From Candidatus Kuenenia hertensis (GTDB taxonomy: Bacteria > Planctomycetota > Brocadiia > Brocadiales > Brocadiaceae): a DNA stretch of 40,054 nt. Of the stretch, positions 1 through 6,136 are shown in pieces; position 1 is the stretch's first letter, and every line of letters begins with the position of its first letter. The notes beneath the pieces are model-generated. The model was not told the origin of the DNA. It was given only the letters and a program-made list of their open reading frames with translations, and made no database searches. The stretch is taken from positions 1 through 40,054 of the forward strand of contig SOET01000040.1 of NCBI GenBank assembly GCA_021646465.1, written 5' to 3'. Both the position numbers and the translations under genes were made by a program.

Positions 1-27
1 CAATTCAATTTAATTTCGAGGTGGTTT

Positions 28-831
28 ATGGTGGTTAATAATGTTGATCTTCGGGAAGCAGATCATGTTGAAGAGGTTGAGGGATTATTGATACGCAGTA
101 GTCTCTATCAGGTTTTGTCGGCGTGTTATCTCTATCCTGAAGGCGAAAAACTTTCGTTTTTGAAGAGTGAAGATTTTCAGGAGTTGGTAGATAATCTTGG
201 AAAAATAAATACCTGTTACCATGAAGCAGGCGATACGTCAGTGTTGATAACTTTCTTAAAATCGGTACGTGCAGAGTTTGAAAAGATCGATATTGAAGAT
301 TTGCAAAGTACGTATAATAGAATTGTCGGGCATACGATATCGAAGGATTGCCCTTTTTATGAAGGTCAATATGGAGCAGCCCATGTGCATCAGCAGGTAC
401 ATGAATTGGCTGATATTCAGGCTTTTTACAGGGCATTTGGGCTTGATATTTCCGAGGAAGAGAAAGAAAGATGTGATCACGTTGGCGTAGAGTTTGAATT
501 TCTGCAGTTCTTGCTATTTAAACAGGCTTACGCGTTGGAAAATCATGGAAGAGAAGAGGCCGAGGTTTGCTTGGAGGCACAAAAAAAGTTCCTGAAGCAG
601 CATGCTGGTAAATGGATACCTCTTTTATCGATTCTTCTTGGTAAAAAAGCAAGAGAAGGGTTTTACTTTGCCGTATCCGAATTAACAAAGGAATTTATGA
701 AGCTGGAAATGAAATTACTGGGTGTGGTGACAGAGATGATGAAAGAGTCGGATCTCAACCAGGAAGAGGTTGCTGGGGCGCCGGATGAATGTTTATCTTG
801 TGCTGGTTTTGATGGTACGGAGTCTAATTAA
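28..831 (+). CDS. TorD/NarJ-family molybdoenzyme chaperone
   Basis: Predicted cytoplasmic chaperone of the TorD/DmsD/NarJ superfamily, which binds the signal peptide of a molybdoenzyme and holds it until the cofactor is inserted. The 267-residue product is all-alpha in character. It carries a CPFYEGQYG segment near residue 110 and a DHVGVEFEFLQFL segment near residue 150, which match the family pattern of a conserved Pro/Tyr loop followed by a D-H-x-x-x-E-x-E-F helix. The ATG is preceded by GAGGTGG. It lies 3 bp from the next gene, with nxrA after that, so NxrA is the obvious client (inference from context). The C-terminus has a CLSCAG motif whose role is unknown. The superfamily assignment is fairly secure; the client is inferred. 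Confidence 0.8.
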   Translation: MVVNNVDLREADHVEEVEGLLIRSSLYQVLSACYLYPEGEKLSFLKSEDFQELVDNLGKINTCYHEAGDTSVLITFLKSVRAEFEKIDIEDLQSTYNRIVGHTISKDCPFYEGQYGAAHVHQQVHELADIQAFYRAFGLDISEEEKERCDHVGVEFEFLQFLLFKQAYALENHGREEAEVCLEAQKKFLKQHAGKWIPLLSILLGKKAREGFYFAVSELTKEFMKLEMKLLGVVTEMMKESDLNQEEVAGAPDECLSCAGFDGTESN

Positions 832-834
832 GCA

Positions 835-1800
835 ATGAATATAGAATTTGATCCTGGTTTGATTGGAGAGGTGTTATTCAAGGAAATGCAGACGAGAGAA
901 GAGCAGGGGGATACTCAGCTTACTGAGGAATATCATTCTCTTGTTGACCCTGTTTATGAGAATTTTTCTATAGAGGATCGTCCGAAACAATTCAGAAAGA
1001 TAGAATGGGATTTTTTTAAGAAACTGGGGTTTGTTGCATTAATTGAAAATGCACTGAATGAATTTCCGGAGTTTGAAGATTCGGTTGCCGGCATGGTGGT
1101 TGTAAAAGCAAAGAGTACTCACGATGAAGGATCGAACCTTATAAAGGGCCTGGACGATGAAGAAGCGAAAAGGAAGATCAAGGTGAAGTTGTTGCTTGAA
1201 AGGTTTCATGACCAGAGCTATTTGCAGAAGTTTATGCGTCATGAACTAATGCATATTTCAGATATGCTCAACGATAGGTTTGGTTACAGAGATGAGGTGC
1301 TGGCAGGAAATCCTATGGAACAAAGTATTATAACCGAGCGTTACAGTACTTTTTGGGATATCTTTGTTGACAGCCGTTTAATAAGAGACGGCAAAGAAAC
1401 GATCGGTAGCAGAGACAGCAGATATGAAGAGTTTGCCGCACTGTATATGGGATTTCCCGAAGAGACAAACAGAGAGATTTTCGACAAGCTGTGGGACGAT
1501 GAAAACCATACCCATGGAAGCATGCTGGAATTGGCTAAAGATGTTAATAAGGTTATTGAGATTGCAAAGGATAACTTACCTGAAGATATGCGCCGAAAAA
1601 AGAAAGTGCTATTACCGGGTTCTGTCTGTCCTTTATGTCAGTTCCGTACTTACAGTTGGGTGGATAATCTTGAAAAGGATCCGGAAATTGTTCAGGTAAT
1701 AAAAAGCGATTTTCCTGATTGGTCACCGGAGGATGGTGCTTGTGATCGATGTGTCGAGATGTATAAATCAAGAAGAGCAATTTCTCAAAATTTAATATAA
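835..1800 (+). CDS. Uncharacterised HExxH and zinc-ribbon protein of the nxr cluster
   Basis: A 321-residue protein I cannot assign to a characterised family. It has no signal peptide or membrane segment, so it is probably cytoplasmic. Two metal-binding patterns are visible: an HELMH motif (H136, E137, H140) inside a predicted helix, and a four-Cys zinc-ribbon pattern near the C-terminus (C265-x2-C268 and C303-x2-C306). A possible third ligand for the HExxH site lies in the acidic helices between residues 160 and 210, which are rich in E and D. Spacing of 3 bp after the chaperone stop and the absence of a clear Shine-Dalgarno sequence suggest translational coupling. Its place between chaperone and nxrA suggests a part in NXR maturation or quality control (inference). 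Peptidase activity is not shown by the motif alone. Confidence 0.75.
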   Translation: MNIEFDPGLIGEVLFKEMQTREEQGDTQLTEEYHSLVDPVYENFSIEDRPKQFRKIEWDFFKKLGFVALIENALNEFPEFEDSVAGMVVVKAKSTHDEGSNLIKGLDDEEAKRKIKVKLLLERFHDQSYLQKFMRHELMHISDMLNDRFGYRDEVLAGNPMEQSIITERYSTFWDIFVDSRLIRDGKETIGSRDSRYEEFAALYMGFPEETNREIFDKLWDDENHTHGSMLELAKDVNKVIEIAKDNLPEDMRRKKKVLLPGSVCPLCQFRTYSWVDNLEKDPEIVQVIKSDFPDWSPEDGACDRCVEMYKSRRAISQNLI

Positions 1801-1842: not shown

Positions 1843-4800
1843 ATGAAGCTAACAAGGAGGACTTTCCTACAGGTAGCGGGTGCGGCTGGTGCAACCTTGA
1901 CGCTTGCAAAAAAGGCGATGGCATTCAGATTATTAAAGCCTGCAGTTGAGGTGGGAAACCCACTAGACGCATATCCTGACCGAAGATGGGAATATGTTTA
2001 TAGGGATCAGTATATGTATGACAGGAGTTTTACCTATTGTTGTTCTCCGAACGATACGCACGCCTGCAGGATAAGGGCATTTGTACGGAATGATGTAATC
2101 ATGAGGGTAGAGCAGAATTACGATCATCAGAGATATGCTGATTTATACGGGAACAAGGCGACCAGGAACTGGAACCCAAGAATGTGCCTGAAAGGGTACA
2201 CCTTCCATAGAAGGGTGTATGGTCCCTACCGGCTTCGCTATCCGGTAATTCGTAAAGGATGGAAGCGTTGGGCTGACGATGGTTTTCCGGAATTAACGCC
2301 AGAAAATAAAACGAAATACATGTTTGATAACAGGGGAAATGACGAACTGCTAAGAGCTTCCTGGGGTGAAGCATTTACCTACGCTGCCAAAGGCATTATC
2401 CACATTACCAAGAAGTATAGTGGTCCCGAAGGTGCACAGAAACTTATCGATCAAGGTTATCCTAAGGAGATGGTTGATAGAATGCAGGGTGCCGGTACGA
2501 GGACATTCAAGGGACGTGGAGGTATGGGGCTTTTGGGTGTTACTGGTAAATATGGTATGTACCGGTTTAATAATTGCCTTGCTCTTGTGGATTCCCATAA
2601 CAGAGGCCTTGGTCCTGATAAGGCACTGGGAGGCAGGAACTGGTCGAACTATACATGGCACGGAGATCAGGCTCCGGGTCATCCGTTCTCCCATGGATTG
2701 CAGACATCCGATATTGATTTTAATGATCTGCGGTTTTCAAAATTGGTTATCCAAACGGGTAAAAATTTAATCGAAAATAAAATGCCGGAGGCTCATTGGC
2801 TCACGCAGGTAATGGAAAGGGGCGGAAAGTTAGTTGTTGTTACACCAGAATATAGCCCATCGTCTCAAAAGGCTGATTATTGGATACCAATTAGGAATAA
2901 TACTGATACAGCTCTTTATCTTGGTGTAACAAAAATACTGATAGACAACAAATGGTATGATGCCGATTATATTAAGAAGTTTACCGACTTCCCCTTGCTG
3001 GTAAGGACCGATAACTTAAAGAGATTGTCTCCAAAAGATATCATTCCGAATTATAAATTGCAGGATATTTCCGATGGTCCTAGTTATCATATTCATGGTT
3101 TAAAAGATGAACAAAGAGAAATCGTTGGAGATTTTGTTGTCTGGGACGCAAAGACCAAAGGCCCAAAAGCGATCACCAGAGATGATGTGGGTAATACGTT
3201 AGTTAAAAAAGGTATAGACCCTGCTTTGGAAGGTTCGTTTAAGCTGAAAACGGTTGATGGAAAAGAGATAGAGGTTATGACGCTCCTTGAGATGTATAAA
3301 ATACATCTGAAGGATTATGATATTGATTCAGTTGTTGAAATGACCAATTCCCCTAAAGAACTTATCGAAAGGCTGGCGAAGGACATCGCAACAATTAAAC
3401 CGGTTGCAATTCATTGTGGTGAAGGGGTAAACCACTATTTCCATGCTACATTGATGAATCGTTCTTATTACTTGCCTTTGATGCTTACTGGAAATGTAGG
3501 ATATTTTGGTTCCGGCTCACACACATGGGCGGGGAATTATAAGGCAGGTAATTTCCAGTCAGCAAAGTGGTGTGGACCTGGTTTCTATGGCTGGGTTGCA
3601 GAGGATGTGTTTAATCCGAATTTGGACCCGTATGCATCTGCAAAGGATTTAAAGATTAAAGGGCGTGCTTTGGATGAGGAAGTTGCTTACTGGAATCATA
3701 GTGAGAGGCCTCTCATTGTCAATACTCCGAAATACGGAAGAAAGGTCTTTACTGGCGCAACTCACATGCCTACTCCGACAAAGATCATGTGGTTTACCAA
3801 TGTGAATCTGATAAACAATGCAAAACATGTATACCAGATGTTGAAAAATGTAAATCCAAATATTGAGCAAATCATGTCCACCGATATTGAGTTAACCGGT
3901 TCCATAGAATATGCGGATTTTGGATTTCCTGCCAATTCCTGGGTCGAGTTTCAACAGTATGAGATTACCTCTTCCTGTTCTAACCCGTTTTTCCAGATTT
4001 GGGGCAAGAGCGGAATCAGGCCTGTCTATGATTCCAGGGATGATATCAATATCCTCGCGGGCATGGCGGCGAAGTTAGGCGAATTGCTTAAGGATACCCG
4101 TTTTGCCGATAACTGGAAATTTGCATTAGATGGCAGATCAGAGGTATATATAAACAGGCTTCTCGATGGTAGTACGACCGCTCATGGATATACGTGTGAA
4201 GATATCCTGGCAGGTAAGTATGGTGAGCCAGGGGTTGCCCTGTTGCTGTTCCGTACTTACCCACGGCATCCTTTCTGGGAACAGGTTCATGAAGATCAAC
4301 CGTTCTATACACCTACAGGAAGACTACAGGCGTATAATGACGAAAATGAAGTTATTGAGTATGGTGAGAATTTCATAGTACATCGTGAAGGGCCTGAGGC
4401 CACGCCGTATCTGCCAAATGCCATCGTCAGTACCAACCCATATATTCGTCCCGATGACTACGGTATTCCGGAAAGTGCAGAGCACTGGGAAGAAAGGACT
4501 GTGAGGAATATCAAGAAGTCATGGGAAGAAACAAAGAAGACGAAGAACTTCTTGTGGGAAAAGGGATACCAGTTCTACTGTGTAACTCCAAAGTCCAGGC
4601 ATACGGTACATTCACAGTGGGCGGTAACCGACTGGAACTTTATCTGGAACAACAACTTTGGCGACCCTTACAGGATGGATAAGAGGATGCCGGGTGTTGG
4701 TGAGCATCAGATTCATATCAATCCACAGGCAGCGAAAGACTTGGGTATTGAGGACGGTGACTATGTATATGTTGATGCAAACCCTGCGGACAGGCCGTAT

Positions 4801-5289
4801 GAGGGATGGAAGCCAAATGATCCGTTCTATAAAGTTTCAAGGCTTATGTTGAGGGCGAAGTATAATCCTGCATATCCGTATAACTGTACGATGATGAAAC
4901 ACTCTGCGTGGATTTCATCTGACAAGACGGTACAGAGTCATGAAACAAGGCCGGATGGAAGGGCTTTATCACCGAGCGGCTACCAGTCGAGTTTCCGTTA
5001 CGGTTCGCAGCAGAGTATTACCAGGGACTGGTCGATGCCTATGCATCAGCTGGACAGCCTCTTTCACAAGGCGAAAATCGGAATGAAATTTGTGTTCGGT
5101 TTTGAGGCGGATAACCACTGTATTAATACGGTACCAAAAGAGACGTTGGTAAAGATTACGAAGGCTGAGAATGGTGGTATCGGAGGAAAAGGAGTTTGGG
5201 ACCCTGTGAAAACGGGATACACTGCCGGCAATGAAAATGATTTCATGAAAAAATTCCTGAATGGTGAATTAATAAAAGTTGAAGCATAG
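1843..5289 (+). CDS. nxrA: Nitrate/nitrite oxidoreductase alpha subunit (NxrA type)
   Basis: Catalytic molybdopterin subunit of the type II DMSO reductase family; in anammox bacteria NXR oxidises nitrite to nitrate and feeds electrons to CO2 fixation. The ATG at 1843 is chosen over an in-frame TTG at 1810 because GGAG lies just upstream and the Tat signal then starts at once (MKLTRRTFLQ). This gives 1148 residues, about the length I recall for anammox NxrA. The FS0 cluster motif reads C67-x3-D71-x3-C75-x39-C115, with Asp where many relatives have Cys. D275 in a W-H-G-D-Q-A-P context aligns with the Mo-ligating Asp of NarG. The protein should be exported folded through Tat. No nxrB or nxrC follows; a hairpin and a cupredoxin gene do. 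A nitrate reductase role cannot be excluded by sequence alone. Confidence 0.9.
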   Translation: MKLTRRTFLQVAGAAGATLTLAKKAMAFRLLKPAVEVGNPLDAYPDRRWEYVYRDQYMYDRSFTYCCSPNDTHACRIRAFVRNDVIMRVEQNYDHQRYADLYGNKATRNWNPRMCLKGYTFHRRVYGPYRLRYPVIRKGWKRWADDGFPELTPENKTKYMFDNRGNDELLRASWGEAFTYAAKGIIHITKKYSGPEGAQKLIDQGYPKEMVDRMQGAGTRTFKGRGGMGLLGVTGKYGMYRFNNCLALVDSHNRGLGPDKALGGRNWSNYTWHGDQAPGHPFSHGLQTSDIDFNDLRFSKLVIQTGKNLIENKMPEAHWLTQVMERGGKLVVVTPEYSPSSQKADYWIPIRNNTDTALYLGVTKILIDNKWYDADYIKKFTDFPLLVRTDNLKRLSPKDIIPNYKLQDISDGPSYHIHGLKDEQREIVGDFVVWDAKTKGPKAITRDDVGNTLVKKGIDPALEGSFKLKTVDGKEIEVMTLLEMYKIHLKDYDIDSVVEMTNSPKELIERLAKDIATIKPVAIHCGEGVNHYFHATLMNRSYYLPLMLTGNVGYFGSGSHTWAGNYKAGNFQSAKWCGPGFYGWVAEDVFNPNLDPYASAKDLKIKGRALDEEVAYWNHSERPLIVNTPKYGRKVFTGATHMPTPTKIMWFTNVNLINNAKHVYQMLKNVNPNIEQIMSTDIELTGSIEYADFGFPANSWVEFQQYEITSSCSNPFFQIWGKSGIRPVYDSRDDINILAGMAAKLGELLKDTRFADNWKFALDGRSEVYINRLLDGSTTAHGYTCEDILAGKYGEPGVALLLFRTYPRHPFWEQVHEDQPFYTPTGRLQAYNDENEVIEYGENFIVHREGPEATPYLPNAIVSTNPYIRPDDYGIPESAEHWEERTVRNIKKSWEETKKTKNFLWEKGYQFYCVTPKSRHTVHSQWAVTDWNFIWNNNFGDPYRMDKRMPGVGEHQIHINPQAAKDLGIEDGDYVYVDANPADRPYEGWKPNDPFYKVSRLMLRAKYNPAYPYNCTMMKHSAWISSDKTVQSHETRPDGRALSPSGYQSSFRYGSQQSITRDWSMPMHQLDSLFHKAKIGMKFVFGFEADNHCINTVPKETLVKITKAENGGIGGKGVWDPVKTGYTAGNENDFMKKFLNGELIKVEA

Positions 5290-5316: not shown

Positions 5317-5362
5317 ACGAGCTAACAAATGTTTACAGAAGTTGAAGCGTTTGTTAGCTCGT
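5317..5362 (+). other. Intergenic 13-bp stem-loop between nxrA and the cupredoxin gene
   Basis: ACGAGCTAACAAA at 5317-5329 is repeated exactly inverted as TTTGTTAGCTCGT at 5350-5362, with a 20-base loop. No run of T follows directly, so it is not a classic intrinsic terminator. It could stabilise the 3' end of a highly expressed nxrA transcript or reduce read-through into the gene starting at 5405 (inference). Confidence 0.7.
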
Positions 5363-5404
5363 GTATTTTATGAAAATTTTGTAAATGGAGGAAAACGAGG
5401 GCTT

Positions 5405-6136
5405 ATGAAAAGGTTTTTGGTTTCTGGTATTCTTGCGATGTCATTTATGGTATCAATGACCGTTGCATTGAAAAATGTTTATGCAGAGGAAGAGAAGAAG
5501 GCTTTAAGTGTTGAAGAGGCTGCTGAGGCTCAAAGAAAATTGGAGGAGGCGCAGCAAAAATTAAGAAGGGTTGTCAATAACATCCCAAAAATTGATAATG
5601 GTGGTTCTATCACAGGAAACGTAACATGCAAAAGGGAACGGACAAATGCGAATGTGGTTGTTTTTCTTGAAACAGTAGGAAATAACGATTTTCCGCCACC
5701 GGCTGACCATGCAGTTGTTGATCAGCTTAACCTGACGTATGTGCCAAGGGTGGTCGCATTGCAAAAAGGTACAGTTGTTGATTTCCCGAATAGTGATGCA
5801 GTGCGCCACAATGTATTTTCACCTCCAACAGCGGCATTGCAGTTCAACCTGGGAACATATCCTACGGGTGTTATCAAGGAGGTGACGTTTGATGTGTTAG
5901 GGGAAACGCCTCTACTTTGTAATGTTCATGCAGAAATGGCAGGCTATGTGCTTTCGCTTGCTAATCCATACTTTGCAATGACTGATAAAGACGGGAATTA
6001 TACCATTGAGGGTGTACCCCCGGGAAAATATACAGTAAAAACGTGGCACGAAAAACTTAAAGAACTGTCGGAAGAGATTACTGTGGAGGCAGGAAAGGCT
6101 ACTACAGTAAATTTTGAATTAAAAAGAAGAAGATAA
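5405..6136 (+). CDS. Secreted cupredoxin-like protein with C-terminal regulatory-like beta domain
   Basis: A 243-residue exported protein. Translation from ATG 5405, after GGAGG and GAGGG, gives a clean signal peptide ending near residue 27 (VYA); an upstream in-frame TTG at 5342 would spoil it and falls inside the hairpin. Residues 28-60 are a charged, coiled-coil-like helix. Residues 70-185 form a cupredoxin-like fold with a plausible type 1 copper set: H135, C172, H175 and M178 (C-x2-H-x2-M). Residues 190-240 resemble a carboxypeptidase-regulatory-like beta sandwich (TDKDGNY, GVPPGKYTVKTWHE). It follows nxrA and ends at a strong terminator, so it may be an electron carrier or structural partner for NXR (inference). 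A paralogue lies at 14.5 kb. Confidence 0.8.
   Translation: MKRFLVSGILAMSFMVSMTVALKNVYAEEEKKALSVEEAAEAQRKLEEAQQKLRRVVNNIPKIDNGGSITGNVTCKRERTNANVVVFLETVGNNDFPPPADHAVVDQLNLTYVPRVVALQKGTVVDFPNSDAVRHNVFSPPTAALQFNLGTYPTGVIKEVTFDVLGETPLLCNVHAEMAGYVLSLANPYFAMTDKDGNYTIEGVPPGKYTVKTWHEKLKELSEEITVEAGKATTVNFELKRRR

Follow-up and report, generated by a model that had tools for sequence, protein, structure and literature searches.

Nitrite oxidoreductase (NXR) makes nearly all biological nitrate. The enzyme contains five Fe-S clusters (PMC8387239), and its catalytic subunit NxrA has a Tat signal and cofactors that are buried. Dedicated helpers of molybdoenzymes are a known class, of which the cytosolic TorD/NarJ chaperones (PF02613), encoded in the operon of the one enzyme they serve, are the closest described examples; TorD, for example, keeps apo-TorA stable and assists in the insertion of its cofactor (PMC9103625). 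A close logical precedent for an assembly role without proteolysis is provided by the HExxH protein Atp23 (peptidase M76), as ATP synthase is still assembled in atp23 mutants that lack proteolytic activity (PMC8877559). Here, we describe a gene wedged between a TorD-type chaperone gene and nxrA in an anammox bacterium, whose product (Q) combines a zincin-like domain with a putative zinc ribbon and is, in our reading, probably a second cytosolic helper of NXR assembly.

Results

Locus and sequence motifs

The analysed stretch of DNA (the window) comprises 40,054 nucleotides of Candidatus Kuenenia hertensis (positions 1 to 40,054 of contig SOET01000040.1, assembly GCA_021646465.1), a Brocadiaceae-like genome (G000). 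The features of interest are the following:

28..831, forward strand: TorD/NarJ-type chaperone (PF02613, TIGR03482), the partner gene, with a CxxC tail (DECLSC); kustd1702 by synteny
835..1800, forward strand: Q, 321 aa, with a zincin-like domain and a putative zinc ribbon at the C-terminus; kustd1701 by synteny
1240..1254, forward strand: HExxH codons, H136-E137-L-M-H140, read directly
1369..1371, forward strand: D179, on the long helix that follows (residues 160-184), a candidate for the third metal ligand from alignment and model, its ligand role being conjectural
1627..1752, forward strand: putative four-cysteine zinc ribbon, C265/C268/C303/C306, from conservation
1852..5289, forward strand: nxrA, catalytic subunit and proposed client, with a Tat-type N-terminus and a conserved FS0 ligand pattern C-N-D-C-C
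5342..6136, forward strand: blue-copper-like exported protein, next gene of the cluster; kustd1699 by synteny

The open reading frame of Q is complete, running from an ATG start to a TAA stop, and is separated by exactly 3 bp (TAA-GCA-ATG) from the upstream gene, which matches PF02613 with an E value of 3e-18 and TIGR03482 (chaperone of type II DMSO-reductase enzymes) with 1e-24. The blue-copper-like protein lies outside the function of Q. In G031, presumed to be K. stuttgartiensis, the order is nxrC-nxrB-torD-Q-nxrA-blue copper protein (the names NxrC and blue copper protein being taken from synteny with the kustd genes and from size), matching the K. stuttgartiensis order kustd1704-1703-1702-1701-1700-1699 (PMC6423088). 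By synteny, the counterpart of Q is kustd1701, whose entry reads only "Unknown protein"; at the kustd1701 and kustd1702 positions transcription falls together with NXR under NO feeding, 5.5-fold and 18.9-fold, and both proteins escaped detection in the proteome (PMC6423088), as expected of scarce helpers. Beyond that report, no further mention of kustd1701 or kustd1702 was found in the literature searched. Purified NXR consists of the subunits A, B and C, tubules also contain T, and the reported components do not include Q (PMC8387239); Q, which has no signal peptide, was accordingly rejected as a structural component of the enzyme.

The motif HELMH occupies residues 136-140 of Q, and cysteines 265, 268, 303 and 306 are its only four. 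In 20,000 composition-preserving shuffles of Q the HExxH pattern appeared 298 times and the pattern C2C-(20..60)-C2C never; HExxH by itself in one protein could be chance (1.5%). Both patterns are kept in every full-length Brocadiaceae or Scalindua-like ortholog aligned. Since the hydrophobicity of Q peaks at a mean of only 0.83, in a 19-residue stretch at residue 258, neither an N-terminal export signal nor a membrane helix is present, and Q is predicted to be cytosolic. The two metal-binding patterns, the missing export signal and the 3-bp linkage to a TorD-type chaperone ahead of nxrA, as claimed in a preliminary description of the window, were thereby all borne out.

Family searches and predicted fold

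No significant family was found for Q in Pfam, NCBIfam or PHROGs, and PDB sequence profiles gave no significant relative, neither for the whole protein nor for the ribbon alone. Furthermore, no relatives were found in plasmids or viral contigs. Q did not match PF02613 (TorD/NarJ). Over the HExxH region Pfam PF09768 (peptidase M76) scored 12.7 bits (E 0.11), below its gathering cut-off of 25.2, so that this search did not place Q in the Atp23 family.

An AlphaFold2 model of Q was obtained from 16 sequences (pLDDT 79.8, pTM 0.74). Foldseek returned nothing at E<=0.001 with this model; in VIA-align, HExxH proteins took the first eight places with weak Z values of at most 6.0 (Wss1 6.0, selecase 5.3, jannalysin 5.0, TTHA0227 4.9, ChlB HExxH domain 4.8, collagenase H 4.1). 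The profile and structure search proposed at the outset thus delivered no significant match, only weak zincin neighbours; each of these is weak alone, and taken together they fit a zincin-like core, whose predicted fold weakly resembles HExxH zincins (Z 4-6). The best neighbours are Wss1-type proteins and the mini-zincins/minigluzincins selecase, jannalysin and TTHA0227 (Z 4.9-6.0), sharing only 8-21% identity with Q. Unlike in these zincins, the putative third ligand of Q is a helical Asp that follows at a distance of about 39 residues, and the HExxH motif is often lost. This residue, 179, is D in 32 of the 37 HExxH-intact rows, G or A in four and E in one.

The ribbon signature of Q, CPLCG...W...DGxCxxCxEY, recurs in two other kinds of protein, both without the zincin domain. 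One comprises Planctomycetota zinc-ribbon proteins of about 70-98 aa, which are not near NXR (L158:7945-8157, L159:7696-7959, L160:1222-1518, L161:7517-7780). The other, X, is an exported-looking protein of about 200 aa between nxrB and torD in Scalindua-like nxr operons (L051-L057, e.g. L055:6420-7055), whose ribbon is that of Q with 39-51% identity over about 51 residues, and which has a conserved tail of its own.

Conservation of the motifs

Among about 45 NXR-linked Q sequences the most conserved residues are W174 (100%), E137 (98%), D143 (98%) and R169 (96%), with H136 at 78%, H140 at 84% and D179 at 73%. In the ribbon-bearing rows C303/C306 reach 100% and C265/C268 97%. HExxH is absent from 12 of the 44 aligned Q (e.g. 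RREFLH, RAELVR, RNEWRH), and the Q tree calls for at least 7 changes of the motif (7-9 over the bootstrap, and 3 if only well-supported branches are counted). Since the stand-alone outgroup described below retains the motif, loss is more likely than gain. Evidently, HExxH with both histidines and the general base fails as a family-wide feature, although it is present in the Q of the window. That E137 persists in sequences without the histidines would argue for a role of this residue beyond zinc-dependent catalysis.

Within the Brocadiaceae and Scalindua-like groups HExxH is invariant in all Q, which suggests a retained metal function there; residue 179 is D in all aligned members. Six aligned Q lack the ribbon (L060, L061, L113, L122, L123, L140) and still reside in NXR operons; consequently, neither module is universal. 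HExxH loss and ribbon loss form only a few independent pairs.

Distribution in Brocadiales

Within the 62 genomes of the order the groups f1-f5 were distinguished, of which f1 was read as Brocadiaceae (named Brocadia and Jettenia contigs map there), f4 as Scalindua-like and f3 as Bathyanammoxibiaceae-like, on the basis of literature and identity only. Q is found in 39 of the 40 f1 and f4 genomes with an NxrA match, the exception being G036, where NxrA lies on a contig fragment, and the gene order is nxrB-(X)-torD-Q-nxrA. The association and order with nxrA that the preliminary description had proposed for checking across Brocadiales therefore hold in these two groups, whereas the NXR operons of f3 contain nxrB and torD without Q.

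The two f2 genomes show the order nxrA-nxrB-torD-Q, one of them with an extra gene between torD and Q. Their NxrA (L096, L097) groups with that of non-Brocadiales Planctomycetota and not with f1/f4, and the f2 Q has neither HExxH nor ribbon, as is likewise the case for L122 and L123; horizontal transfer of the NXR operon is suggested for this group.

Second nxrA copies occur in five Brocadiaceae loci without an adjoining Q (G000:C85:944-4381 (L092), L093, L094, L098 and L099; 94% identical in the genome of the window). As these genomes hold one Q elsewhere, Q would have to act on such copies in trans. The torD beside two of the second copies has lost its C-terminal CxxC. A correlation of this TorD tail with Q was considered and rejected, since the tail is found in many NXR-linked TorDs, both with and without Q.

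Furthermore, a stand-alone paralog of the Q core of about 210 aa without the ribbon (HExxH...YIDSRL; L059:7191-7892, L062:5056-5733, L063, L064, L065) is encoded away from the NXR genes in f3 and f4. It keeps HExxH and the D, and its neighbourhoods, which include a PPIase and a class I tRNA-synthetase, gave no functional clue.

Distribution beyond Brocadiales

In a draw of 392 Planctomycetota genomes, which together with the plasmid and viral sets defines the range covered, Q was found scattered in 28 non-Brocadiales genomes; in a 29th, G148, its C-terminus lies at a contig edge. Outside Brocadiales, Q and NxrA occur together in 27 genomes, Q without NxrA in one, NxrA without Q in 29 and neither in 299 (Fisher p 7e-24, uncorrected for relatedness). 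Where NxrA is at least 60% identical to that of the window, Q is present in 26 of 28 genomes, and where it is 40-58% identical, in 2 of 27; G282, with a 182-residue, 85% identical NxrA fragment that is likely contamination, was left out of these counts. The two Q genomes with divergent NxrA are G359, whose truncated NXR operon ends at a contig edge, and G186, whose match is weak and outside an operon.

Of the 25 flanked non-Brocadiales Q loci, 24 have Q on the same strand directly beside TorD or nxrA, the remaining one being a second Q copy in G064. The orders are Q-nxrA-nxrB-torD or nxrA-nxrB-torD-Q, in some cases with 4-bp overlaps. G081 holds a torD-Q pair and no NXR was found in it, which may reflect loss or incomplete assembly; the pair (L106:5027-6789) adjoins a sigma-54 response regulator, an aconitase and a protoglobin-type sensor kinase.

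In a tree of 65 NxrA rows a single change accounts for the operon-borne Q, and the clade that carries Q is supported at 97. Given this single change and the NXR without Q in f3, Q tracks the NxrA lineage and not the species tree. Operon-borne Q marks one NxrA clade on this tree and is absent from more divergent NxrA, including that of one anammox family. In published work the NxrA of Nitrospira and Nitrospina is reported between the anammox lineages, with Bathyanammoxibiaceae basal (PMC10467342).

Two side observations concern the NxrA of these genomes. About 28 of 356 sampled non-Brocadiales Planctomycetota have an NxrA that shares 60% identity or more with the anammox protein, and nxrB, torD and Q usually accompany it (L105-L124, L138-L148); it is possible that they are unrecognised nitrite oxidisers or nitrate reducers. 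In a non-Brocadiales sub-clade of NxrA (L107-L110, L114, L121) Cys replaces the unusual Asp ligand of FS0, giving CNCCC instead of CNDCC (Kuenenia residues 67/70/71/75/115).

Discussion

The operon linkage, the co-occurrence and the single change on the NxrA tree support an accessory or maturation role of Q for NXR. We infer that Q is a cytosolic assembly factor which acts together with TorD on NxrA before Tat export, through a zincin-derived binding core and a ribbon that presumably holds zinc, and give this reading a probability of about 0.6. Q would then be a dedicated biogenesis factor of one nitrite oxidoreductase clade, co-expressed with the TorD-type chaperone, and both would act on the cofactor-bearing NxrA precursor, possibly on NxrA plus NxrB. 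The core would serve mainly for binding and be built around the conserved residues E137, D143, R169 and W174, the ribbon being a second conserved module, probably structural or partner-binding. The metal site (H136, H140, perhaps D179), kept in the Brocadiaceae and Scalindua-like groups, would be dispensable for the common function of the family, and proteolysis would be optional at most. Several points weigh against an assembly factor: the NXR of f3 and that of the NxrA clade of 54-58% identity function in the absence of Q, G081 has a torD-Q pair and no NXR was found there, HExxH is invariant in all f1/f4 Q, and the ribbon is missing from some Q in NXR operons.

The idea of an unrecognised NXR factor, as put forward in the preliminary description, is well supported by the near-exclusive linkage to NXR operons, beside TorD and/or nxrA, over the whole NxrA clade. 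Homologues common in genomes without NXR, which would have spoken against it, were not encountered for Q itself (one of 28 non-Brocadiales genomes), while the ribbonless paralog does occur away from NXR. The part of that idea which concerns a protease or metal catalysis fared worse in view of the incomplete conservation of H136, H140 and D179 and the repeated changes of the motif: poor conservation of HExxH among relatives, named there as counter-evidence, is indeed seen in the wider family and is not seen in f1/f4. That Q of anammox bacteria is an active zinc peptidase (ligands H136, H140 and D179, general base E137), trimming an NXR subunit or clearing misfolded NxrA, with the HExxH-less relatives as decayed pseudo-proteases, would agree with the invariant HExxH and D179 in these two groups, with the HExxH proteins as best structural neighbours of the model and with the stand-alone paralogs that retain the motif and the D. 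Nevertheless, we regard such a peptidase as rather unlikely, as the motif changed at least seven times while the gene stayed in the NXR operon and E137 persisted, a clade of four members (L105, L107-L109) has kept HExxH but not D179, and the fold matches are of low Z and below Foldseek significance. The repeated loss of the protease motif makes an assembly helper more likely than a protease.

Two further functions start from the ribbon. As zinc ribbons are often nucleic-acid binders, Q might regulate nxr expression, with its core as a sensor of metal or of the state of NXR and its ribbon as the part that binds nucleic acid or RNA polymerase; a marginal profile match to the archaeal RNA polymerase subunit P points in this direction, but with an E value of 0.63 it is not significant, and the neighbours of Q are TorD and NxrA, with close or overlapping TorD junctions, and no regulators, which leaves this role very improbable. 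Delivery of metal or iron-sulphur clusters to NxrA/NxrB would suit a four-cysteine module adjoining an enzyme with five Fe-S clusters (PMC8387239) and the altered cluster ligands (CNCCC) of some relatives. However, several lineages lack the ribbon, no correlation of Q features with the ligand type emerged, and in f3, where the operon has no Q, NXR shows CNDCC as well; a delivery factor is likewise very improbable.

The assembly factor preferred here can be set against the known helpers. With the TorD/NarJ chaperones Q shares the operon, the predicted cytosolic location and the dedication to one enzyme, and the same client and stage are proposed; it differs in its predicted fold with HExxH and ribbon and would be an extra partner, not the chaperone itself. 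Compared with Atp23, Q would have a different client and carries a C-terminal ribbon. Tentatively, and at slightly less than even odds, Q could represent a new class of molybdoenzyme assembly factor, in which a zincin-derived client-binding domain joined to a ribbon has come to accompany TorD as a standard further helper in one lineage of NXR, the catalytic motif being repeatedly discarded and the binding core kept. The sources searched describe neither this helper nor its architecture, nor its association with a single NxrA clade.

We know of no established genetics for anammox bacteria. Q offers a concrete, testable candidate for the loading of cofactors into, or the folding of, the NXR apoenzyme before export, a step about which little is known. 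In addition, HExxH was lost many times independently while the gene was kept, which makes the family a natural experiment that may separate catalytic from scaffold roles in zincin-like proteins.
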